This document shows positions 3,694 to 14,858 of a stretch of DNA of 42,688 bases, piece by piece. The translations under genes were made by a program, and so were the position numbers. Location: positions 1-42,688 of IMG/VR virus record IMGVR_UViG_3300048589_000195; one strand, written 5' to 3'. Source of the stretch: a virus. Under the pieces are notes generated by a model. The model had not been told where the DNA came from. It worked only from the letters and a program-made list of their open reading frames with translations, and did no database searches. How positions within the stretch are numbered: the first letter of the stretch is position 1; the number at the start of each line of letters is the position of its first letter.

Positions 3694-3949
3694 CTCGCAC
3701 CTCCCTGATGACCGTCCGTACCCGCTCGGGCCGGGCGCGCAATGTCTCTATCTCGACGTGCAGCTTGTCCAGCCGCCGCGCCTGATCCAGCCACTCGGCG
3801 TTGATCGCGTTGACCCGCGCCTGCTCGACCGCCTGCCAGCTCGCCCGCTCGCCCGCCACGCCTCGGCGGTAGGCAGCGCCGTGCGACCAGGCAAGGGCCG
3901 CGACCAGCACGCCAGCGGCGGCGAGGTAGAGCCATGCGCGGGGAATCAT
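3554..3949 (-). CDS. Rz: Rz-like inner-membrane spanin (131 aa)
   Basis: Start at the ATG 3949, overlapping the amidase stop (ATGA). Residues 6-22 (WLYLAAAGVLVAALAWS) form the N-terminal membrane anchor; residues 30-80 are a charged helix with coiled-coil character (ERASWQAVEQARVNAINAEW, then RRLDKLHVEIETLRARPERV). This type II topology with a periplasmic helical rod is the hallmark of i-spanins. The C-terminal part contains Cys near residue 91. It works with the overlapping Rz1 lipoprotein to disrupt the outer membrane after the amidase has degraded the wall. Confidence 0.87.
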   Translation of the reverse strand: MIPRAWLYLAAAGVLVAALAWSHGAAYRRGVAGERASWQAVEQARVNAINAEWLDQARRLDKLHVEIETLRARPERVRTVIREVRVEADADCSSLPGSWRLLWDAAADPGPAGAAASLDDAGVPAVAGARR

Positions 3950-4488
3950 CGGCGCACCGTCTCGGCCAAGCCGGCCGCAATCGCAATCGCCGCCTCGCGC
4001 TGGCAGTGCGGATCGGTCAGGATGTGCCGCTCGCGCTCGTTGGACAGAAACGCGAGCTCGACCAGGATCGCGATGCGTTCGTAGCGTAGGATGGCCAGAT
4101 CCGACCGGTGCTTCGCGCCACGATTGCGCGTGCCCAGCGCGCCGCACACGCGCTTGTTCACCGCGGCCGCGACCCATTCATACCCGGCATGCAGCGTCTC
4201 GGTGCCGTGGGCCTGCGGCGACGCTGCCGCGTTGCAGTGGATCGACACTATGCAGTCCGCGCCGGCAGCCCTGAGCTTCGATACCCGGTAGCGCAGTGCC
4301 GAGGGCTCGTCGTTGTCGCGCCGGGTCATGGCCACCGACCAGCCGCGGGACAGGCACTCGTCGCGCAGGTGGTGCGCGACGGCCAGCACCACGTCGGCCT
4401 CGCGGACGCCCGCGTAGACGGCGCCGGGGTCGAACTGGCCCCAGGATCTCGACGCGAGACCGTGGCCCGGGTCGATGCCGACGATCAC
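3946..4488 (-). CDS. Endolysin: N-acetylmuramoyl-L-alanine amidase (180 aa)
   Basis: An Amidase_3 family enzyme, which cuts the amide bond between N-acetylmuramic acid and the stem peptide. Visible zinc ligands and catalytic residues fit the family: His9 in GIDPGHG, Glu30 in GVREADVV, His84 in VSIHCNAA, and Glu144 in ILVELAFLSN. I chose the GTG at 4488, which overlaps the preceding stop (GTGA) and puts the first beta strand right at the N-terminus. No signal peptide or anchor, so release through a holin is expected. Two small membrane proteins upstream and the spanins downstream complete a four-part lysis cassette. Confidence 0.92.
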   Translation of the reverse strand: MIVGIDPGHGLASRSWGQFDPGAVYAGVREADVVLAVAHHLRDECLSRGWSVAMTRRDNDEPSALRYRVSKLRAAGADCIVSIHCNAAASPQAHGTETLHAGYEWVAAAVNKRVCGALGTRNRGAKHRSDLAILRYERIAILVELAFLSNERERHILTDPHCQREAAIAIAAGLAETVRR

Positions 4489-4760
4489 AGCATTCGCCGC
4501 TCGAGGTAGCGTTTCAGGTGGCGCCGGTGCTGCAGCCACGACCACCAGGCCCAGCCGGTGGCACCGGCTAGGCAAGTCAGCAGGCCGACCACCCAGCGCG
4601 GCGGATCAGGCTGATCGAACCCGGAAAGCGCGAACACGGCGGCCCCGCCGATGAACAGTGCCGAGACCCAGCCGCCCGGCACGCAAGGCGCCAGCACGAC
4701 GTAGACGGCAGCGGCAACGATGATCGACAGCGAGACCCACAGCAGCAGGGTCGTGATCAT
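4485..4760 (-). CDS. Small membrane protein, holin candidate (91 aa)
   Basis: Three hydrophobic segments: about residues 2-25 (TTLLLWVSLSIIVAAAVYVV), 31-47 (GWVSALFIGGAAVFALS), and 57-74 (WVVGLLTCLAGATGWAWW). A strongly basic tail follows (QHRRHLKRYLERR). Three membrane spans, a length near 90 aa and a positive C-terminus fit class I holins or their partners. It lies directly upstream of the amidase with a GTGA overlap. The gene upstream (4757-5098) also encodes a membrane protein, so one may be the holin and the other an antiholin or accessory protein; sequence alone does not say which. Confidence 0.72.
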   Translation of the reverse strand: MITTLLLWVSLSIIVAAAVYVVLAPCVPGGWVSALFIGGAAVFALSGFDQPDPPRWVVGLLTCLAGATGWAWWSWLQHRRHLKRYLERRML

Positions 4761-5098
4761 GGGTCGAGCCTCAGAAGTTTTCGAACGAAGTCCCGAAGCA
4801 GCTTTGGGGCCTCGATGCCCTTGATTCCGGCGATGATCTCGGCCACGACGATCAAGCCGAAGAGCGCCACCGCGCCGCCGATCCCCTGGGCCACCGGGAT
4901 CGACGTGACGCCTGCCCAATCGACGATAGCCGGCGACGCGAACATCGACAGGCCCACGCCAGAGGCAGCAGAGAACGCCCGATCGATTCTCGTTGACTCG
5001 GGCGGCTGAAAGCGCATCGAGACAAGCGCCCCGACGAAGGTCGGCCACCACTTGGCGGCCAGGGCGGCGACGCCCTCTATCAAGGAATCGACCGCCAT
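4757..5098 (-). CDS. Membrane protein, second holin or holin-like candidate (113 aa)
   Basis: The start at 5098 overlaps the stop of the upstream repeat protein. There are two or three hydrophobic segments: about 10-25 (ALAAKWWPTFVGALVS, weak), 42-60, and 70-92 (GIGGAVALFGLIVVAEIIAG). The C-terminus is basic (LLRDFVRKLLRLDP). The layout resembles phage holins that have a soluble or amphipathic N-terminus and two spans; similar proteins often stand at the head of lysis cassettes. It overlaps the next membrane protein by four bases. Role as holin, pinholin or antiholin is not decided by the sequence. Confidence 0.65.
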   Translation of the reverse strand: MAVDSLIEGVAALAAKWWPTFVGALVSMRFQPPESTRIDRAFSAASGVGLSMFASPAIVDWAGVTSIPVAQGIGGAVALFGLIVVAEIIAGIKGIEAPKLLRDFVRKLLRLDP

Positions 5099-6525
5099 CA
5101 GTGCGCCTCCCTCGCATTGGCCAGCAGGTAGCCAGCCTTCCCGCTCACCGGCTCTGTGAAAGTGATCGCCGACTGGCCCACGGCGAGGAAGTCGAGCGTG
5201 AATTCCGCGTCGCCGTTCGCGTCGGTGAGCGCATCGGCCGACACCGCGACGAAGCCGGGCGTCTCTGACACCGCCTGCAGGGTGATGCCAGCCGGGCTCC
5301 CAGAACCCACCACGACCTGCACGCGGGCCGTGCGGCTCGCGACCGGGTAATCGGCCATCCGCAGCGCGTAGGGGCGAATACCGACGATGTCCTCGTTCGA
5401 CAGGATCGAGTAGACCGGCGAGAAGGCCAGCGTGACGGCGCGGATCGTGTCCCAGGTGGGCGAGAAGTCCGCCGACACCGCGGCGGTGATGTTCCAGCTC
5501 GGCTGAAGGTCGCGCGCGACGGTGCCCGGCAGCGCGGCGATGTTCCACGACCCCGGCAAGTCCTTGGTGATCGAGGCGGTCGTGTTCCAGGTGATCGCCT
5601 GGTCGGCCGAGACGGCATTCAGGACATCCCACGCCGGCGCGTAGTCGAGCTCGGGATTTGATGTCGAGTCCCAGGTCGCCGTGAAGTCGGCCGTGACCGG
5701 GAACGGCAGGTCGCCGCCGCCATCGATCTCGCCCACCTCGCCGATCTCCCAGCCTGGCGAGAAGTCTGCGGCCACGGACTCGACGATCGAGAACTCGATC
5801 GTGTAGCTTGCGACGACCGACGAGATGCTGCCCGGCGCCCAGGTGTCCGCACCCTCGACGGTGCGCGGGAACCAGGCAATCTCGTACTCGGTCAGGAACC
5901 CGAGCAGCCACGCCGGCGAGAAGTCGCGCGAGACCGCCGCGAGCTCGTCGATGTCCCAGCCCGGCGAGAAGTCCGCTGAGACCGGGTTCAGGTCGGTGAT
6001 CGAATACTCGGTCGCGAAATCCGCTTCGACGTAAGCGATCGTGGCCCATGTGGGCAAGAGATCGCGCGTGACCGAGTTGCGGATGTCCCAGGCCGGCGCG
6101 TAGGATCGCGGCGCCACCGCGGCGATGATCGACCACGACTGCGGGAAACTCGCGCTGATCGAGCCGGCGAGGTTGAACGATGCCGCGTAGTCTTGCGAGA
6201 CCGTGCCGCCCAGGTCGAACGAGACGAGATAGTCCGCCGTGACCGTGGTGCCGTCGTTGTCGAACTCGACGACCAGGTCGGCGGTGATTGCCTCGCGCGC
6301 ATCCCACGAGAACGTCGCCGACGCCGGTCCGACCGAGGCCAGCGTTTCCCACTCGGCGGTGTAATCCGCCGAGACCGCGCCGCCTTCAAGATCGAACGAG
6401 ACGACAAGTTCGGCCGGGCTGACCGGCTCGAAGATGTCGAACGTCGGCGCGAAGTCGGCGGTGACCGGCTCGCTCTCGAGCAGATACCAGCCGTCGAGGT
6501 CGAACCAGCTCGGCGCGACGCTCAC
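5098..6525 (-). CDS. Virion-type protein of about 23 short W-D-I repeats plus a C-terminal Ig-like domain (475 aa)
   Basis: Residues 1 to about 355 consist of roughly 23 degenerate repeats with a period of about 14 residues. The consensus is aromatic-S/T-P/A-x-W-D/N-I-x3-V-T/S-x-D, with examples FSPTWDTIRAV, YAPAWDIRNSV and FSPGWDIDELAAV. The conserved aromatic/W and alternating small and hydrophobic residues suggest a beta structure such as a solenoid or stacked hairpins. A spacer GEVGEIDGGG interrupts the array near residue 270. Residues from about 375 to the end resemble an Ig-like domain (VQVVVGSGSPAGITLQAVSE, then DANGDAEFTLDF). It lies between lysis and tail genes, so it is probably a tail or surface appendage protein. 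Function unknown. Confidence 0.75.
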   Translation of the reverse strand: MSVAPSWFDLDGWYLLESEPVTADFAPTFDIFEPVSPAELVVSFDLEGGAVSADYTAEWETLASVGPASATFSWDAREAITADLVVEFDNDGTTVTADYLVSFDLGGTVSQDYAASFNLAGSISASFPQSWSIIAAVAPRSYAPAWDIRNSVTRDLLPTWATIAYVEADFATEYSITDLNPVSADFSPGWDIDELAAVSRDFSPAWLLGFLTEYEIAWFPRTVEGADTWAPGSISSVVASYTIEFSIVESVAADFSPGWEIGEVGEIDGGGDLPFPVTADFTATWDSTSNPELDYAPAWDVLNAVSADQAITWNTTASITKDLPGSWNIAALPGTVARDLQPSWNITAAVSADFSPTWDTIRAVTLAFSPVYSILSNEDIVGIRPYALRMADYPVASRTARVQVVVGSGSPAGITLQAVSETPGFVAVSADALTDANGDAEFTLDFLAVGQSAITFTEPVSGKAGYLLANAREAH

Positions 6526-6779
6526 AGCACCCCGCCCCCGTCGATCTCACCGACCGCAGGTGCGGTAATGACGACCCGCTCGATCTTCACCGCGGGCGGC
6601 TGGTAGTAGCACACGCCGGGCTCTTTCGACGCCCGCTCGTAGGCTTCTTCGGCCACCAGGTGCCGCGAGATCAGCGTGCCGTCGGCGCGCGTGAGCCGCC
6701 CGTAGCCCTGGCGCGTGAAGCGCAGGGCCGCGGGGGCTTCGCAAGCCTCGCCGTCGATCGGGAACCAGGCATCGGCCAT
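6522..6779 (-). CDS. Small hypothetical protein (85 aa)
   Basis: Unknown function. The centre (ALRFTRQGYGRLTRADGTLI) looks like a short beta-rich domain, followed by a helical stretch and the end PAVGEIDGGGVL. That ending matches the GEIDGGG spacer inside the repeat protein encoded just downstream at 5098-6525, which it overlaps by four bases. Probably a small virion or chaperone-like partner of the neighbouring tail proteins. Confidence 0.65.
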   Translation of the reverse strand: MADAWFPIDGEACEAPAALRFTRQGYGRLTRADGTLISRHLVAEEAYERASKEPGVCYYQPPAVKIERVVITAPAVGEIDGGGVL

Positions 6780-6780
6780 G

Positions 6781-8031
6781 TCATTCCTCGATCACGGTGC
6801 AGCTGATGATCCCGGTCGTGTTCGTAGCGTTGCGCACCAGCGCGACCGGCGTGTCGGAGGTCGTGAGCGCGGAGCCGCCGAAGTCGGCCACCGGAACCTT
6901 AAGCACGGCCTTGCCGCCTTCCAGCGCCGCCTCGAAGGTCGCTCCAGTGAACTCGCCGTACTTGGTCGGGCCGGTGATGTTCGAGCCGGCCGGGGCGCTC
7001 CACACCGCGCCCGCCACGCCAGAGTCTCCCTGTGCGTCGGCGTGCGCGAGCAGCTTGAGCTTCTTCGTCAGCGCCGTGACCGTCAGCGTTACGCTATCCG
7101 TCTCTCCGCTATCCGCAGCATTCGTCGCCGTGATCGTCGTGCTTCCAGCCGCAACGCCAGTCGCGTTGAACGTGATCGACGAATTCCCCTCCAGAATCGT
7201 CGCCGTGGCAGGGACAGTCGCTTTGCCGGTGTCACTGCTGGTCAGGTTGTATGTCACCCCGCCCGCGCCGGCCGGGGCGCTGCGGGTGGCGGTGAAGGTT
7301 CTGGTGCCGCCGACCTGGACGGAAGCCGGGTCGGGGGTCAGCGTGATCGTTGCTGATGCGTCCGCTGGCGTGATAGACACCGCCACCAGCGCATTGTCGT
7401 AATGCGTGACTTCCGCATAATCAAAAGTGGCCGTTACGCTTGAAGCGCCCGCTTTGCTACCGGAAATAATCGAGCGCGACGAATCAAAGGCTGCCTGTTC
7501 ACTATAGTCGGACGTGTCGCCCGCAGAAAAATAGCCAACTTCGTTTCTAGCCGCAGCAAACGCAACAACAAGCTCACCAGTCGCCGAATTAACCGTTATC
7601 GGTAAATCGTTCGCGGGCATATCCGCCTCAAACCGCTTCGCGGAATTTGAGATCATCGCGGCCGTATCATGGCCCGTTATGTGACGGACAATTACAGCAG
7701 CGGAATTATTGTTTGAACCCGAGAAAGTAACTGTAATGTTGCCAGTCTTGGCGGATGTCGGTGCTGCCAGCACATAGACCGCTAGCCACCTTGGATGGAC
7801 ATCATCGACCGCATAAGTTTGCTGTTGCGTCAGGACATGGGTAAACGACTGATTGTCGCCCGCAGAATCCCATACAACCGATGTAATCGTGTCGGCTGTG
7901 GAACCGCCGTTGAACTCATAATGAACGCCGACAAGCAGCCCCTCGCCCGATGCGCGAGCTACCGAAATCGAGTAAGCACCATTTGACGGTGCGCCCCCGC
8001 TCTTTGTCGTGTTGGCGATAGCGACTGCCAT
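6781..8031 (-). CDS. Tail or surface protein with a bacterial Ig-like domain (416 aa)
   Basis: Residues 1 to about 220 form a beta-rich N-terminal domain with motifs such as VGVHYEFNGG and NITVTFSGSNN, without a family I can name with certainty. Residues about 222-318 look like a Big_2-type Ig domain: SITPADASATITLTPDPASV, then GGTRTFTAT, then STTITATNAADSGETDSVTL. The last 95 residues contain APAGSNITGPTKYGEF and a conserved-looking small domain. Such Ig-like domains on phage virions aid weak binding to cell-surface sugars. DNA of the N-terminal half (about 7400-8030) is clearly less GC-rich than the packaging genes, a sign of separate origin. Confidence 0.7.
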   Translation of the reverse strand: MAVAIANTTKSGGAPSNGAYSISVARASGEGLLVGVHYEFNGGSTADTITSVVWDSAGDNQSFTHVLTQQQTYAVDDVHPRWLAVYVLAAPTSAKTGNITVTFSGSNNNSAAVIVRHITGHDTAAMISNSAKRFEADMPANDLPITVNSATGELVVAFAAARNEVGYFSAGDTSDYSEQAAFDSSRSIISGSKAGASSVTATFDYAEVTHYDNALVAVSITPADASATITLTPDPASVQVGGTRTFTATRSAPAGAGGVTYNLTSSDTGKATVPATATILEGNSSITFNATGVAAGSTTITATNAADSGETDSVTLTVTALTKKLKLLAHADAQGDSGVAGAVWSAPAGSNITGPTKYGEFTGATFEAALEGGKAVLKVPVADFGGSALTTSDTPVALVRNATNTTGIISCTVIEE

Positions 8032-8032
8032 G

Positions 8033-9235
8033 TCAGGAAGTCCTCATAAACTTCATGTTTTCAGAAAACCGATTTGCGATCACCAGGCCACCAAGCTCAG
8101 GCGCATACTGGAGTTTTCCCATCGGGCCATACACTGGCCCCTTCGGGATCGTTCCTGACATCGTTGGAGCAGTCACTTCCCAGGTGCCTGAATCTACTCG
8201 ATACAACGTAATCTCGGTCGCCCCTGACTCGTCTGCGTTGGCTCCGAACATGACCCAAAAACAGTCATTCTCCGAGTCGTACACACAACCCGGGTACTGG
8301 CCAGCCGATGAAATCGGGCCTTCGCCCAACCCGCCAAACGTGACCGCGATATTTGCCCCGTCAGGGATCGAAAATACCTTTGGCGTATATCCGGCCGAAG
8401 GAGTGTCGTTGTACCCGCCGATTTTCAGAATTCTGCCGCGCGTGTGATCGAGCGCCATGCCGCAATAACCGGTGCCGTTGTTCGAGTTGCCAACGAACGA
8501 CCATGTGTTTGTTGCCGCCGTGTACTTCTGCACCGCGTAGCCCATCTGCGCGACCCAATACACATCCCCGGTCGTTGGATCGCTACAGCATGCGGAATAA
8601 TCAGTCCCGCCGGCTGGCATCGCAGCCAGGGTGCCGGGGTAAAGCCAACTATTCGTTTCCGCATCGAACGCGGCCATCCCTCCAGATCCGGCAGGGTAGC
8701 CCCACCCTGACGGCGGTTCCGGGATGCCCAACATCAAAAGCCCCGACTTCGACACCCGCATCAGCCGGTTACGCAGTTGATCGAATTGCAGCGCCCAATA
8801 TGTGTGGATCGAGGACGGCGTTAGATCCAGGTAATACTCGGCGTTGTTGATGATGTCGTCGTAGGCACTTGGCGGATGCAACTCCTGCCAGCCTGTGATC
8901 GTGTCCTGGCCGAGTGCGATTGCGTTGACTTCGTTTCCCGCGTAGTCACCGTGCCCGCCAGAGCAAGCAATCTGGTAGACGCTCCCCGAGTGCTTCAGCG
9001 CCGCGCCGTTCCACGCCGTCCACTTCGCCTGCGATGGCGTGCTGGTGCCGGTATTTGGCGGCGGCACAGTCCCAGGGCCGCCCCACGTGATCGGACACTC
9101 GGACAGTTTGGAGTTTGGAATCTCGACCCATTCATGCACGCCGGGCAACGACCCGCCGGACGCCGTGGCCAACCAGGCCGGATATGCGGCAGGGTCACGG
9201 ACATTGATCTTGCGCGTGATGCTGACCCGAGTCAT
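8033..9235 (-). CDS. Predicted beta-propeller tail protein (400 aa)
   Basis: The sequence has several kelch-like blade elements, with recurring pairs such as WTAWNGAALKHSGSVYQIAC, GMAAFDAETNSWLYPGTL, VQKYTAATNTWSFVG and PGCVYDSENDCFWVMFG. Blades of this type (xYDxxTNxW) support a propeller of about six or seven blades. The motif GGHGDYAGNEVNAI near residue 93 is shared with other phage and bacterial kelch-like proteins as far as I recall. The position between fibre and Ig-like genes points to host recognition or sugar binding on the tail. It ends one base before the 416-aa gene and overlaps the YkgJ-like gene by four bases. Confidence 0.62.
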   Translation of the reverse strand: MTRVSITRKINVRDPAAYPAWLATASGGSLPGVHEWVEIPNSKLSECPITWGGPGTVPPPNTGTSTPSQAKWTAWNGAALKHSGSVYQIACSGGHGDYAGNEVNAIALGQDTITGWQELHPPSAYDDIINNAEYYLDLTPSSIHTYWALQFDQLRNRLMRVSKSGLLMLGIPEPPSGWGYPAGSGGMAAFDAETNSWLYPGTLAAMPAGGTDYSACCSDPTTGDVYWVAQMGYAVQKYTAATNTWSFVGNSNNGTGYCGMALDHTRGRILKIGGYNDTPSAGYTPKVFSIPDGANIAVTFGGLGEGPISSAGQYPGCVYDSENDCFWVMFGANADESGATEITLYRVDSGTWEVTAPTMSGTIPKGPVYGPMGKLQYAPELGGLVIANRFSENMKFMRTS

Positions 9236-9597
9236 GCGGCCTCCAATGTGTCAAGGCGGCGCTTGCCTGCGTCATAAACCGATCGCATCGTCGGATTCTC
9301 TTTGACTCGCTGGCGGCGCTTGGCCTTGTTCGTCAGCAGGAACAGCACGCGACAGTCGAACCGCGCGCAAATGTCCGGCGGCGCATCATGAACCGAGCAG
9401 CCCCGATCCGTCAGGTAGACGCATTCACCGTTGGTTTTCCTGTCCAGCACACGCTCCCCGAGTTCCTCGTGCCACTGAAACCGCGCCGATTCGGCCTCGG
9501 TCAAAACAACGCGATCCTGTTTGCAGCAGGCCCGGCAGGAACCGCACGGAACCTTCGCGGGACGAGATTTCATTGCGACGAGTTGGTCACGAGTCAT
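9232..9597 (-). CDS. YkgJ-family cysteine-cluster protein (121 aa)
   Basis: The N-terminal CGSCRACCKQDRVVLTEAE is the CxxCxxCC signature of the YkgJ family (putative zinc- or iron-chelating domain). More cysteines follow at ECVYLTDRGCSVHDAPPDIC and FDC, giving the usual set of eight. The C-terminus is basic and helical. Members are found scattered in bacteria, often as accessory proteins, and the role is not established; a few phages carry them. Here it is wedged between two tail genes with 1-4 base overlaps, so it is expressed with the late genes. It might assist metal loading of a tail protein, but that is only a guess. Confidence 0.8.
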   Translation of the reverse strand: MTRDQLVAMKSRPAKVPCGSCRACCKQDRVVLTEAESARFQWHEELGERVLDRKTNGECVYLTDRGCSVHDAPPDICARFDCRVLFLLTNKAKRRQRVKENPTMRSVYDAGKRRLDTLEAA

Positions 9598-12344
9598 CAG
9601 GCATTCCTCGGATAGAACGACCAGACCGGGGTCGCGCGGAAGTCGGCCGGCGCAAGTAGCCAGCTCTGTGACCCCGTGATGCGCGACCAGGCCGCATCAG
9701 CTCCCGCCGCGCCATGCTCTTTCGCCATCACGAGCGCTGCGTAGTGGAACGCGACGCCGGAAGTAACAGCCCACGATCCAGCAGATACAGGGTTTGCCCC
9801 GTAGTAGATCGCGCCATTCGGGTCGTCAGGGTCCGGGTCCGGCAGCGCGGTCCACCCGCTGTTCGCGTACTGCTGGTAGACGGCGTATACCGCGCCCCAG
9901 TCGGCAAGCCAGGATTCCGGCGGCACGCCCACGCTGTCTGCCGCATACGGCATCGAGTAGCTTCCGAAGTGCCTCCAGTTATAGGTGCCGGCCGACCCTG
10001 GCCCGGCCACCCCGACCGCATGCTTGTAGCCGTGATTACGCACGGCCAAGTGCGACGCCTTGGCGCCGACGCTCTGCGGCACATCCAGATCCCACGCATG
10101 ACCGAACGCCAGAATCAAGGTGTCCTGCATCCATGGGGCATCCCACCAGTGCGTGCCCTCGGTGCCATAGGGGCTCGTGCCGTTTCCACCGTAGAGTCCC
10201 AGGCACCCGAGATTGTTCGCATACGCTCCGGCGCTGCGCGTGCCGGTTACGTACAACCCTTCGTAGGCCGCGACGTTGTTCTCCCACGCCGCTTTGATGC
10301 TCGTGAACGCCGGGTGCTGGGCCAGCGCGCCAGTTCCATCAGGCAGTGCTGAGAGCAACTGCGCAAGCGTGCGCATGTTCCACCCTCGCGACCGGACCTG
10401 CTCGTTCAGATACAGGCCGTTCGCGTACTCCCGTGTGACGTAGCTTTGCGCCAGGTAGTTGCGGAAGTTCCAGAACAGGATCTCGTCGAGGAAGTACCAG
10501 CGGCCAGTCAGCAGCCATGGCAGATAGGCCATCGAGGGCTGGTGCGCCTGATCCTCTGTTCCGACCGTGCCGCCTGTCCCGCTGGGGATCGACGGCGTGC
10601 CGCCCCACTCGATCGACGCATTCGGCCAGTCCGTGTAGAGCGGCGGCTCATTGGTCACCGCATCCCGGTAGTGGATCGACCACGACCCGGCTGCGTGGCC
10701 GTTCGCAAGGACCGAGCGATAGGCGCGGGCATCCGCATTGCTGGACAGGTAGGCCGCCTGCCAGTTCGGCAGAACGCCGATGTGACCCTGGAACCCGGCC
10801 GCGCCCATCGCGGACGGTACGTTGCCGCGCCACATCGGCGTGTAGGTCTGCGTGAGCCCGGCAAGCGTCGATTCCTGCGTCGTCCAGCCATAGTTCGGGA
10901 CAGCCTTCGTGGCCTTCAGATAGGCAACGTCATGCACCGGCTCGATCTGCGGATCGCCACCGATCCAGTAGGAGAAGTGCTTGAAAGACGAGGCCGAATT
11001 GTCCAGCAGGTAGGCGTGCGCGTGGTGCTTTATGTCGATGCTGGCGCTGAATACCACGACGCCACCGATCGTCAGCGTCCAGGTCCGCACATCGTTGGTC
11101 GGACCAGCCGTGAACAGGTAGCCGTTTTCCACCTTCGGCGGGAACAGTTCGACGCGCCCGCCCTTGTAGAGCCGCAACTCGAATAGCACGACCAGGTGAT
11201 TCGACCCCGGAACCGGCGCGCGAAAGATCCACTGCGACATGACCGGCCCGGTCAGCACCGTCTTGAACGGCGTGGCCACGAGGTCGTTGAGCGTGATGAC
11301 CTGCGAGCCGCCCTGCACCGTCACGGCCGCCAGCGCCGCGGCCAGATCGGCCGGCGTGAGCGCCGTGCCGGCCCGGTCGGTCCCCGCGACCGAGAGCTGC
11401 GCGGCCCTGAGCACCTGCGCCGAGCAGGTCGCCCGGCCCGCGATGATCGCGTGACGCAGCGATCCGTCCGGCCAGGTCGTCGTCGGGACGCACTGCCAGT
11501 CGGTCAGGTCGCTATCCACATACGACCCGCTCGGCACATCGCCTTGCTTGAACACATGCCCGAAGGCGAACGGCAGATTCGACCCGCCAACGCTCGACAG
11601 CACGCCGAACGTGGGAAGCGTAGCCGCCACCGCGCTGTCGTCAACGTCGAACACGATGTCGCCGGAAAGCGCGACCGGCGCGCTCGATCCAGCCGCCAGA
11701 GTAGTCGGCCCCGTTTTCGTCACCCCGAGCGGCAGCGACGATCCAGACCCGAGCGCCACCGAGTACGGTGGAACGCCGCCAACGATGTAGTCGGCGAAGT
11801 CGAATGTTCCACCCTGATTGATCTGGATCGGGTTCGGAACCCCGCTTGCATCAAGCGCCTGTGCCGACCCATCCGCCACCGACCAGGACGGCGACAGGCT
11901 CGCCTGAGCGAACGTCATCAGGTTCCACTGCGCCGAGTACGGGCCCTCAACTGGCACGAACCCCTGCGCCTGCACTTCGACCGTGCCGAGCCGGCCGCTC
12001 TGCCCCGTCGCGAACGTCGCCAGCGACCAGTTGAAGTCCGCGCCCGACAGCCCGAACGATCCGCGCATCCAGCGCGAGCCGGCCTCGAAGGCGAGATACC
12101 AGTCCGCATCCGGCGTGCCGCCGTTCGTCACCATGAAGTCGGCGAGCTCGCCAATGACCAGCCGCGACCCCACGATGCTCGCCCATGGCGTTTGCATCGT
12201 TCCCGACCCGCGCGCCACGTCAGAGCCGTCGTAGACAGTCGCCGTGACGGTGCCGGTGATCGCGGCCATGACGACCGCAGCACGCGCCGATGGCGTCTCG
12301 GCTGCGTCGTACTCGGCGCGGGTGGTGGGGTCGAGCGAGAGCAT
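9597..12344 (-). CDS. Large tail-spike-like protein, candidate polysaccharide-degrading enzyme (915 aa)
   Basis: The longest gene here. Residues 1-130 form a start typical of virion proteins (MLSLDPTTRAEYDAAETPSA). Residues 136-156 hold two units of the W-14-W repeat seen in the 475-aa protein (YSAQWNL and LSPSWSV). Residues about 174-240 resemble an Ig/cadherin-like domain (GGVPPYSVALGSGSSLPLGV). From about 255 on, WPDGSLRHAIIAG and later strands recall the first domain of exo-rhamnogalacturonan lyase-like (PcRGLX/YetA) proteins. Residues from about 480 are helical and aromatic-rich (SRGWNMRTLAQLLSALPDG; WWDAPWMQDTLILAFGHAWD), as in an alpha/alpha toroid. Together this suggests a depolymerase or glycan-binding receptor protein. 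The enzyme class is inferred and no catalytic residue is assigned. Confidence 0.62.
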   Translation of the reverse strand: MLSLDPTTRAEYDAAETPSARAAVVMAAITGTVTATVYDGSDVARGSGTMQTPWASIVGSRLVIGELADFMVTNGGTPDADWYLAFEAGSRWMRGSFGLSGADFNWSLATFATGQSGRLGTVEVQAQGFVPVEGPYSAQWNLMTFAQASLSPSWSVADGSAQALDASGVPNPIQINQGGTFDFADYIVGGVPPYSVALGSGSSLPLGVTKTGPTTLAAGSSAPVALSGDIVFDVDDSAVAATLPTFGVLSSVGGSNLPFAFGHVFKQGDVPSGSYVDSDLTDWQCVPTTTWPDGSLRHAIIAGRATCSAQVLRAAQLSVAGTDRAGTALTPADLAAALAAVTVQGGSQVITLNDLVATPFKTVLTGPVMSQWIFRAPVPGSNHLVVLFELRLYKGGRVELFPPKVENGYLFTAGPTNDVRTWTLTIGGVVVFSASIDIKHHAHAYLLDNSASSFKHFSYWIGGDPQIEPVHDVAYLKATKAVPNYGWTTQESTLAGLTQTYTPMWRGNVPSAMGAAGFQGHIGVLPNWQAAYLSSNADARAYRSVLANGHAAGSWSIHYRDAVTNEPPLYTDWPNASIEWGGTPSIPSGTGGTVGTEDQAHQPSMAYLPWLLTGRWYFLDEILFWNFRNYLAQSYVTREYANGLYLNEQVRSRGWNMRTLAQLLSALPDGTGALAQHPAFTSIKAAWENNVAAYEGLYVTGTRSAGAYANNLGCLGLYGGNGTSPYGTEGTHWWDAPWMQDTLILAFGHAWDLDVPQSVGAKASHLAVRNHGYKHAVGVAGPGSAGTYNWRHFGSYSMPYAADSVGVPPESWLADWGAVYAVYQQYANSGWTALPDPDPDDPNGAIYYGANPVSAGSWAVTSGVAFHYAALVMAKEHGAAGADAAWSRITGSQSWLLAPADFRATPVWSFYPRNA

Positions 12345-13040
12345 CTACGCAACCCTCCGCAGGTAGCCTTCGCCGGACTCGCAGAACTCGGCCCACTTGC
12401 GGTACTTGCGCTCGAGCCTCAACAGATCCGAGTCGGCGTAGACCTTCTTAAGCAGATCGGCGGCCTTGCCGCAGTCGAATACGAGGCGATACACGGCGTG
12501 GCCTTTCGTCCCCGTGTACGAAATGCTCCCGCCAACTCGTTTCTGAATGTCTTGCAGGAACGCTTCGCTGCCCGATGCGATCGACACCACCAGGCGCTTG
12601 TATCCGGGGCGGTTGAACTTCCCCCCAGCGCGAACCATCACACTCCCGTCGCCGTCGATCACGCCGCGCAGGAAGTGGTAGAAGTGCTCGGCAGGAAGAT
12701 CGCCCGGTACTCGGCACGTCATCGTCTTGCGCGGCAGCACGCCGTAGCGAGCGAAGGCATCGACCACTTCCTGGCCCTGCACGCGCAGCAGGTAGTAGGT
12801 GCCGTGGCGCCGCTCGCAGGTGCGGATCTCGCGCGTCGCCGACATGATCCGCTTGAGCGTCTCCAGCCAGTCGCGGTCGGCGACGTTCCACTCGACGGCG
12901 CGGTGCCTGTAGACGTAGCCGCCGGACAGATAGTCTGCCGAATGCACGCACCCGTCGGTCAGCGTTGCGCCGATCAGGTAGGCCAGCTCGCGCGACCAGT
13001 TGTCGAAGAGCGAAGCGTCGAAGGTGCCTGGCTTCTTCAT
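12345..13040 (-). CDS. Free-standing LAGLIDADG homing endonuclease (231 aa)
   Basis: Two LAGLIDADG helices are visible: residues 19-31 (ELAYLIGATLTDG) and 122-134 (HFLRGVIDGDGS). Each ends in the acidic residue expected for metal binding (Asp29 and Asp129/Asp131). Their spacing of about 100 residues fits a single-chain two-domain enzyme. Between and after them are beta-rich and basic stretches (RKTMTCRVPGDLP; KRLVVSIASGSEAFLQDIQK) that would form the DNA-contacting saddle. It lies exactly between two tail genes, one base from the 915-aa gene, and has no splicing domains, so it is not an intein or obviously intron-borne. Upstream bases 13041-13070 are AT-rich with no strong ribosome binding site. 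Confidence 0.87.
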   Translation of the reverse strand: MKKPGTFDASLFDNWSRELAYLIGATLTDGCVHSADYLSGGYVYRHRAVEWNVADRDWLETLKRIMSATREIRTCERRHGTYYLLRVQGQEVVDAFARYGVLPRKTMTCRVPGDLPAEHFYHFLRGVIDGDGSVMVRAGGKFNRPGYKRLVVSIASGSEAFLQDIQKRVGGSISYTGTKGHAVYRLVFDCGKAADLLKKVYADSDLLRLERKYRKWAEFCESGEGYLRRVA

Positions 13041-13070: not shown

Positions 13071-13568
13071 TCATGCAGAAGTATCGCCCTTCACGCGGAT
13101 CGTGAACCCGTCGCCCGTGTAGGCAGCCGCAGACGCACCTACGACGCGCTTGATCCAGATCGCCTGATGCTGGCCTGCCGGGATGTTGCCGATCGACAGC
13201 GCAGCGCCTTCGGTGGCCGCCAGGGCGAAGGTCTCTCCGCTCGGCGCCGTGTTCTCGTTGGCGACCGTCTCGGCCGTGCCGTTCACGCCCTCGCCGGCCA
13301 GCGCGATGGTGACCTCGGTGTCGGCCGACGGCGTGTTCGAGTGAATCCACACCTTTGCCGACTGCAGCGCAAGCGTCCCGTGGTTGTTGTGGATGTAGAC
13401 GCACCGGTAATCGGTGTGCCCGGCGCTCGCCTCTGCGCTCGACACGTTGTCGAACAAGTTGGTCGAGGCCTCGGTCGAGGACTTCGCGCCGCCAAGCGCG
13501 AGGTTAGGGTCGGTGTTCGACGCGCCGCCCGAGAGGCGGATCTTGATGTCACTGGTGACGATGGGCAT
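13071..13568 (-). CDS. Conserved phage virion protein (165 aa)
   Basis: A beta-rich protein opening with IKIRLSGGASNTDPNLALGG, a start seen in a family of phage structural proteins that follow tail fibres. The central YRCVYIHNNHGTLALQSAKVW and the end (GNIPAGQHQAIWIKRVVG) alternate polar and hydrophobic residues, as in an Ig-like or jelly-roll domain. It starts at ATG 13568 behind the ribosome binding sequence AAGGAGCAGTC. It could be a fibre-associated decoration or attachment domain; exact role unknown. Confidence 0.7.
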   Translation of the reverse strand: MPIVTSDIKIRLSGGASNTDPNLALGGAKSSTEASTNLFDNVSSAEASAGHTDYRCVYIHNNHGTLALQSAKVWIHSNTPSADTEVTIALAGEGVNGTAETVANENTAPSGETFALAATEGAALSIGNIPAGQHQAIWIKRVVGASAAAYTGDGFTIRVKGDTSA

Positions 13569-13577
13569 GACTGCTCC

Positions 13578-14858
13578 TTAGACCTTGAAAATGAAACAGA
13601 GCGCGTAGTACGGGGGTCGGTTCTCAAGGGCAGTGCCGCTGCCCACGGAAGAGGTCGTGCCGCTCACGGTGTGCGCGTGCGACGAGGCGGTGCTGGTGCT
13701 GATCGAGTGCGAGTGCGTGCCGCCGGAGCCGGTCTGGGTCGCGGTGACGGTGCCGGATGCCGAGACCTGCGTTGCGTTGGAGGTGACCGCAGTGGTGGCC
13801 CCGCCGTCGCCCGACCCGGCGTTCTCGGTGTGCGTGTGCGCGCCGTCGGCGGAAGTCGATCCGCTGTGCGCGTGCGCTCCGGCCGACGAGCTGGTCGCCG
13901 AGAAGGTGTGCGAGTGCGACGGCAGGTTCGCGGTGCCGATCGACACCGATGCCGAGCCGCCGCTCGAGCTCACCGCGTAGCTCGAGCCCGCGCCGACGAT
14001 GAACCGATCTCGCAGGTCCGGCGTGCCATTCGTGCCATCGCACAGGCGCCAGCCGGTCGGAATCGATGCGATCGACCCGGACCACATAAGGATGACGCCG
14101 GACGGCACCGCGGCGACCGCGGCGACCGCCGAATCGACGTAGCCCTTTGTGGCCGCGTCGAGCGCGGCAGCCGGCCCGGCGCCGACCGTCAGGACGCCAG
14201 CAGTCGACCAGCTCGGCCCGCCAGTCGAGAGCGATGCCGGCGTGATCGAGCCAGGCGTGGTGCCGCCCTCGGGGCCGGTCGGGCCTTGCGGCCCCGTCGG
14301 GCCGGCTGGGCCTTCCGGACCCTGCGGGCCTTGGCCCCACGGGATCGGCGCCGTCCAGCCGCTCGCGCCGACCCGGAAATAGATCGCGCCCGCGTCGAGC
14401 GCGAGGAACGAGAACCCGGCCGGCTCGCTGTCGTAGGCGTCGCGGTCCGAGAGCAGCAACGAGGTGGCGTTCGGCTCGAAGCTGTAGCCTTGCGGGCCTT
14501 GCGGGCCGGTGGGCCCATCCGGACCCTCGGGGCCAGTCGGGCCGGTGGCGCCGACCGGGCCTTGCGGACCCGTCGGGCCGATCGGCCCCTGCGGGCCTTC
14601 CGGGCCCTGCACGGTATCCACGGCCGAAGCGATGGCCGCGATGGCGTCTGCGGTCAGGGCCAGCGCCGTGACGACCCCGTCGCGCAGCGTGCCGTCGTCG
14701 TTCTGGATCAGCGCCAGGTTGGCCCGCAGCGCATTGGCCGTGGTGGCAATGCGCGCGAACTCGTTGTCGACGGCCGCGAGCGAGATCAGGCTGCGGCCGG
14801 CGCTGCCTTCGCTCTCGCTGAAGTTCGACTGCGGCTGATAGGCTGGCGCTTGCGGCAC
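13578..14858 (-). CDS. Tail fibre with collagen-like repeats and His-rich collar tip (426 aa)
   Basis: Begins at GTG 14858. Residues 1-85 form an attachment domain ([20 protein letters not shown]). Two collagen-like stretches follow, about 86-128 and 172-205, made of Gly-Pro-X triplets such as [20 protein letters not shown]. Residues about 243-255 ([16 protein letters not shown]) are a trimer linker common in fibres. The C-terminus from about 260 is a tail-collar domain: [20 protein letters not shown], then [13 protein letters not shown], and the end [14 protein letters not shown]. It contains five HxH pairs (HSH, HAH, HTH, HSH, HAH), like the iron-binding HxH pairs in the T4 long tail fibre tip. 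Probable role: reversible receptor binding. Confidence 0.88.

Follow-up and report, generated by a model that had tools for sequence, protein, structure and literature searches.

In many phages, the genes for arrays of a 14-residue aromatic repeat are linked to the gene for phrog_13135, a PHROG of about 180 aa with no known function; this gene linkage is a new finding. The array that led to it is encoded by ORF 5098-6525 of the IMG/VR virus record IMGVR_UViG_3300048589_000195, of which the whole 42,688-nt stretch, here called the window, was analyzed. Because the ORF 5098-6525 protein scored 88.7 against a profile of the repeat, compared with at most 13.7 for its shuffled copies, and because in-register arrays were found elsewhere, it belongs, judged by its sequence, to a phage repeat that is widespread and unnamed. 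We put at about even the chance that it serves as the scaffold of a virion appendage made of two components, the partner being the phrog_13135 protein.

The repeat gene and its surroundings

ORF 5098-6525 lies within a late-gene block on the minus strand. Its parts, and the features of the window considered with it, are as follows.

5098-6525, minus strand: repeat protein, 475 aa; GTG start at 6525, stop codon at 5098-5100
5395-6465, minus strand: array spanning residues 21-377, with about 23 units, each of 14-17 aa, divided by eye
5713-5733, minus strand: GEIDGGG spacer within the array (residues 265-271)
5101-5394, minus strand: non-repeat C-terminal part of about 98 residues (378-475), Ig-like by eye only
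3946-4575, minus strand: endolysin, N-acetylmuramoyl-L-alanine amidase (Amidase_3)
4757-5098, minus strand: holin (phrog_2359), directly downstream of the repeat gene and touching it
6522-6779, minus strand: 85-aa ORF with GEIDGGGVL as its last residues; its overlap with the start of the repeat gene is 4 nt
6781-8031, minus strand: 416-aa protein with a Big_2 Ig-like domain, sharing the strand and gene block of the array
9597-12344, minus strand: 915-aa protein of no known family, near the phrog_13135 gene, with two array units inside
11868-11951, minus strand: the two units VEGPYSAQWNLMTF AQASLSPSWSVADG in the 915-aa protein, weak when taken alone
13071-13568, minus strand: phrog_13135 protein, 165 aa (E = 7.4e-28); candidate partner gene, linked to arrays in many phages

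The closest gene to ORF 5098-6525 is 93% identical and is found in the one close relative, contig IMGVR_UViG_3300048839_000328 (L003). Substitutions between the two number 27/15/65 at codon positions 1/2/3, and dN is 0.043 and dS 0.192 (dN/dS of about 0.22). Because of this codon-position pattern and this dN/dS, ORF 5098-6525 is, on comparison with its relative, an old and maintained coding sequence, in agreement with the first-pass annotation of this DNA, which had called the array old and maintained.

The self-similarity of the protein is maximal at a lag of 14 residues (z = 6.8, top of 60 lags; BLOSUM62, residues 1-390, against 300 shuffles), and the units are mostly of 14 residues, with some of 15-17, which bears out the roughly 23 repeats of a 14-residue unit that had been counted by reading. 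The description of the unit as W-D-I holds as far as the repeat itself is concerned; a strict W-D-I does not, and alternating hydrophobic residues with an aromatic residue (W, F or Y) at position 8 fit better. The GEIDGGG spacer is real. The C-terminal part is likewise separate from the array, while its supposed Ig-like nature was an impression by eye and found no family match.

GEIDGGG occurs twice in this region, once within the array protein and once closing the 85-aa ORF, and the pair may be the mark of a duplication or of an old fusion point. A resemblance, seen by eye, of the N-terminal domain of the 416-aa neighbor to the N-terminal domains of relatives received no support from hhalign or phmmer, and a search of IMG/VR with the holin found no relative. 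Elsewhere in the window, the late structural block includes a gene (9232-9597, minus strand) for a 121-aa protein whose zinc/iron-chelating domain is of the CxxCxxCC type (PF03692), and a tail-fiber protein (phrog_8469, Pfam Collagen; 13578-14858, minus strand) combines GXY repeats like those of collagen with a weak tail-collar domain.

Register of the repeat

The register in the ORF 5098-6525 array is V0-x-A-D-F/L4-x-P-x-W/F/Y8-D-I10-x-x-x, and the consensus of the family, taken from IMG/VR arrays, is V/I0-S-x-D/T-L4-x-L6-x-W8-N/D-I/V10-R/L-x-x. In ORF 5098-6525, the fraction of V, I, L, M, F, W or Y is 1.0, 0.94, 1.0 and 0.65 at positions 0, 4, 8 and 10, and 0.06, 0.0, 0.06 and 0.0 at positions 1, 3, 7 and 9; at position 6 the hydrophobic fraction is 0.24, against 0.59 in the family. 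The periodic profile mentioned above, which defines the 14-residue aromatic strand repeat, was built from 46 IMG/VR arrays, all from other phages. With the aromatic (Trp) column removed, it still gave the ORF 5098-6525 protein a score of 45.2, against a shuffle maximum of 16.0.

At first reading the repeat could not be placed in a known family, and the library searches agree. The ORF 5098-6525 protein had no match in Pfam (best 14.9 bits, cut-off 25) or NCBIfam, no PDB chain matched it (the family profile reached at best E = 1.9), and the repeat is described nowhere in the open-access papers searched. The nearest PHROG is phrog_6079 ('tail protein', 605 positions), of which positions of about 42-210 match many IMG/VR arrays (best E = 8e-25); its HMM, however, gave the ORF 5098-6525 protein only a non-significant E of 0.033, and PHROG names neither a repeat nor a mechanism. 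Pfam DUF6150 (PF19647) matched one relative, L058, weakly (E = 1.4e-5; 25.4 bits, under the 27-bit cut-off), whereas ORF 5098-6525 and the other relatives scanned had no match. The triple beta-spiral of adenovirus and reovirus fibers is built of 15-residue units in which hydrophobic residues alternate and the turn is conserved as Gly/Pro. It resembles the present repeat in its short units, its alternating hydrophobic residues and its viral fiber context, but the period here is 14 and no position is conserved as Gly/Pro among 766 units.

Arrays in other phages and genomes

IMG/VR was scanned with a degenerate DNA pattern written for three W-x-I units; the pattern scans are biased to Trp units. 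This pattern matched 72 stretches, of which 46 were genuine arrays with 766 units in all; a wider DNA pattern raised the number to at least 104 array ORFs, and an earlier, stricter Trp pattern gave no match. The repeat is not private to the phage of ORF 5098-6525: the consensus search shows widespread arrays in many phages. Recurrent QCWCYC pattern matches in IMG/VR were judged to be due to chance and were dropped. Applied to 257 Gb of genomes of bacteria and archaea, the DNA pattern gave 37 matches, three of which (L102, L103 and L106) seem genuine; the others were mostly low-complexity or alternative-frame sequence.

Among the matches listed, the 72 complete array ORFs have 5-74 units, with a median of 14. 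Arrays fill the ORF or sit at its C-terminus, and a C-terminal flank of at least 100 aa was found in only three of these 72. The largest array among the matches listed is that of L039 (6259-9747; 1163 aa), in which nearly all of the 74 units read WN(I/L)RHD. The N-terminal partners vary, and include minor-tail domains (phrog_553/2106), Fn3, metallophosphoesterase and, in KVP40-like phages, gp15. Judged by its sequence contexts, the array acts like a module that is joined to various, mostly tail-type, proteins.

With tblastn, arrays of equal period and register were found in named phages at two places: in KVP40-like Vibrio phages they make up a C-terminal extension of the tail sheath terminator gp15, and in Aeromonas Casjensviridae a large tail protein ends in a Tyr variant of the array. 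The arrays of gp15 from KVP40, F86, nt-1 and EniLVp02 and of the vB_C4 tail protein scored 57-142, with shuffle maxima of 13-17. The gp15 extension of the four Vibrio phages is made of 14-residue units with V/I at position 0 and an aromatic residue at position 8, and gp15 is followed by the gene of a phrog_13135 homologue, KVP40.0353 in KVP40; the array is fused to gp15 in these phages, whereas it is a protein of its own in ORF 5098-6525. The protein C4000016 of Aeromonas phage vB_C4 and its relatives end in about 25 14-residue units (LLPPYGLRSTVQAE) of matching register (score 107.7, with shuffles reaching at most 14.0), but they differ in having Tyr for Trp, near-identical units and no detectable phrog_13135; in the more divergent relative 13AC503A, the score is lost (7.9). 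Alteromonas phage A5 (Schitoviridae) carries a stand-alone array, gp16 (score 25), directly upstream of gp17, a phrog_13135 homologue, although gp16 has only six units and is annotated as hypothetical.

Several other candidates were rejected. Klebsiella Webervirus matches to a family array proved to be an artifact, since they read the opposite strand of a tail-fiber gene that encodes a heptad coiled coil; at L124 2855-5770 and L125 1798-4740, the antisense of a 42-bp heptad repeat mimics a 14-residue array in translated searches. Matches to Klebsiella RCIP and Acinetobacter LAPP1 (E of about 1 or worse) are baseplate J-like proteins without repeats, and gp21 of Stenotrophomonas S1, which scores 15.0 where shuffles reach 13.0, is not claimed as an array. 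In MG592456.1 (Vibrio phage 1.081.O), several CRISPR spacers are annotated within the gp15 repeat region.

Linkage to phrog_13135

When the neighbors of arrays were scanned against PHROGs, phrog_13135 led, with 23 occurrences upstream and 11 downstream; the next upstream family had three. With an HMM built here, a phrog_13135 homologue was recognized in 69 of the 103 array loci listed, always on the strand of the array (69 of 69) and at a median gap of 11 nt; about a third of the array loci listed have none in the available DNA. Loci fetched by the pattern and without a called array held it in only three of 57 cases, and at least two of these (L018 and L083) are arrays clipped by the end of the locus. 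In the reciprocal test, 53 loci were fetched by phrog_13135 alone, of which 40 had an array scoring at least 30, with all 40 best arrays on the same strand; at one locus, a score of 30 was also reached on the opposite strand. A score of at least 30 was reached at none of the 53 loci with residue-shuffled proteins and at six of the 53 with reversed proteins; these controls replaced control loci, which had mostly been chosen by the Trp pattern and of which nine of 40 score at least 30. In alignment A7, the phrog_13135 homologue L133 seems misassigned. The array from a bacterial genome, L106, is also accompanied by phrog_13135.

A search of 50,697 records of named phages recognized phrog_13135 in 55: 52 Vibrio records, one Alteromonas schitovirus and two uncultured phages, the last two with no array nearby. 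In KVP40 and nt-1, the phrog_13135 homologue is the gene adjoining the array-bearing gp15, and the search for gp15 arrays likewise matched 52 Vibrio records, the two lists having been compared by eye. These linkage counts repeat related genomes, and the 52 Vibrio records represent one lineage, so that the independent lineages (KVP40-like phages, A5, IMGVR_UViG_3300048589_000195 and an uncounted variety in IMG/VR) outweigh the counts.

In the window the two genes are not adjacent: the array gene lies about 6.5 kb downstream of the phrog_13135 gene, on the same strand, and ORFs of 231, 915, 121, 400, 416 and 85 aa lie between them. The 231-aa ORF (12345-13040, minus strand), situated between the phrog_13135 and 915-aa genes, resembles by eye a LAGLIDADG-type homing endonuclease (LIGATLTDGC, LRGVIDGDGS). 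It may be an insertion there, which is suspected because the homologue of the 915-aa protein in L217, a locus on the contig of the close relative, starts only 4 nt after phrog_13135. This homologue has an array score of 29.

It is possible, though less likely than the appendage, that the array is a mere length-setting stalk or spacer in tail or neck proteins and that phrog_13135 is a passenger of the late module, whose product does not touch the array. The fusion of arrays to many unrelated domains (metallophosphoesterase, Fn3, minor-tail), the range of unit number among the matches listed, and the lack of phrog_13135 with the Aeromonas arrays and at about a third of the array loci listed would all suit such a stalk. 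However, the linkage is reciprocal and strand-consistent and spans KVP40-like Straboviridae, a schitovirus and metagenomic lineages, and a passenger would be expected to part from the array more often.

Fold of the array

AlphaFold2 gave a pLDDT of 31 for the full ORF 5098-6525 protein with a single relative, and a pLDDT of 66 and a pTM of 0.52 for eight units with a 38-row in-phase alignment, where mostly one strand per unit was seen. At this low to middling confidence, the model suggests that each 14-residue unit probably forms one beta-strand. In the covariation of neighboring units, the antiparallel line j+j'=10 was top in all three adjacent-unit runs, with p-values, corrected for 26 lines, of 0.007-0.47 depending on the identity filter; a same-position (parallel) signal was not seen. 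If the line reflects antiparallel pairing, the hairpin turn would be at positions 11-13.

A parallel-stacked, narrow beta-solenoid with ladders of Trp, Asp/Asn and Val, instead of an antiparallel meander, is a rival for the fold only and is compatible with the appendage. W8, D/N9 and V0 are indeed conserved at fixed positions, and the Foldseek list of the eight-unit model against PDB consists mostly of beta-solenoids, led by FapC amyloid, bactofilin and CsgA, although none was significant (best E = 0.018, TM of about 0.15); against a viral library, there was no match at E ≤ 0.001. The covariation, by contrast, leans weakly to the antiparallel side, though too unsteadily under the identity filter to decide the topology. 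With these pLDDT values and no significant fold match, the beta-solenoid of the first-pass annotation is not shown, and we regard it as possible but less likely than not.

An early unit profile had weak PDB matches to the designed beta-barrels TMB10_163 (E = 0.0017) and TMB12sol9_3 (E = 0.041), which fit a strand-hairpin periodicity. Since the array gene adjoins the holin and amidase genes, an up-and-down beta-barrel or membrane-active sheet acting in lysis with these two was considered, and it is quite improbable: the matches were gone with the larger family profile, up to 74 units are ill-suited to a closed barrel, and KVP40-like phages carry the array in their tail terminator. A compositional or antisense artifact with no real protein, such as is real in the Weberviruses and might be feared in a GC-rich region with long ORFs on both strands, is refuted for ORF 5098-6525 by its codon-position pattern and dN/dS, its 4-nt overlap upstream and contact with the downstream gene, the annotation of the KVP40 and Aeromonas arrays in sense, and the strand-consistent linkage to phrog_13135.

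A candidate two-component appendage

Repeat-built phage appendages are already known. A virion appendage, which had been proposed at first reading, is judged the most likely role because the repeat occurs in tail proteins of named phages, and the gene itself stands in a late-gene region beside lysis genes. We infer that the ORF 5098-6525 protein is present in the virion, that it contacts the phrog_13135 protein and that it serves in an appendage. In the two-component appendage, each unit would contribute about one beta-strand (roughly positions 3-11) and a short turn, with positions 0, 4, 8 and 10 facing the core, together with position 6 in the family and A2 in ORF 5098-6525. Twenty-three units would form a long sheet-like or fibrous element, the length of which would be set by copy number. 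The array would be a mobile module, standing as its own protein in ORF 5098-6525 and in A5 gp16, and carried elsewhere on the C-terminus of differing tail or neck proteins, such as the gp15 tail terminator (KVP40-like), the large tail protein of Aeromonas Casjensviridae, and proteins with minor-tail or Fn3 domains. The phrog_13135 protein would probably dock on the units or cap the appendage, which, at the tail or neck, may have a host-facing or head-tail-junction role.

Against this appendage model speak the gap of about 6.5 kb in the window, though the 915-aa protein near phrog_13135 has two units; the Aeromonas arrays without detectable phrog_13135; the low to middling AlphaFold confidence; and the contact of the array gene with the holin gene, which makes a role at the lysis stage conceivable. 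More tentatively, the pair could be a cassette distributed across unrelated tailed phages, in which an extensible aromatic repeat scaffold, with one strand per unit and carried on whichever tail, neck or stand-alone protein is at hand, is combined with a dedicated small binder, phrog_13135, and unit number sets how many partner copies are displayed. The 'beaded' structure that had been suggested is possible only in the sense of a partner protein docking on the array.

In short, neither a name nor a fold was found for this repeat, yet it is carried by well-known phages such as KVP40 and by very many environmental viruses. Through the linkage to phrog_13135, proteins annotated as 'hypothetical' and 'tail', in two large sets, gain a shared, testable role, and the linkage is a starting point for explaining what gp15 of the KVP40 group does with its C-terminal extension at the head-tail junction.
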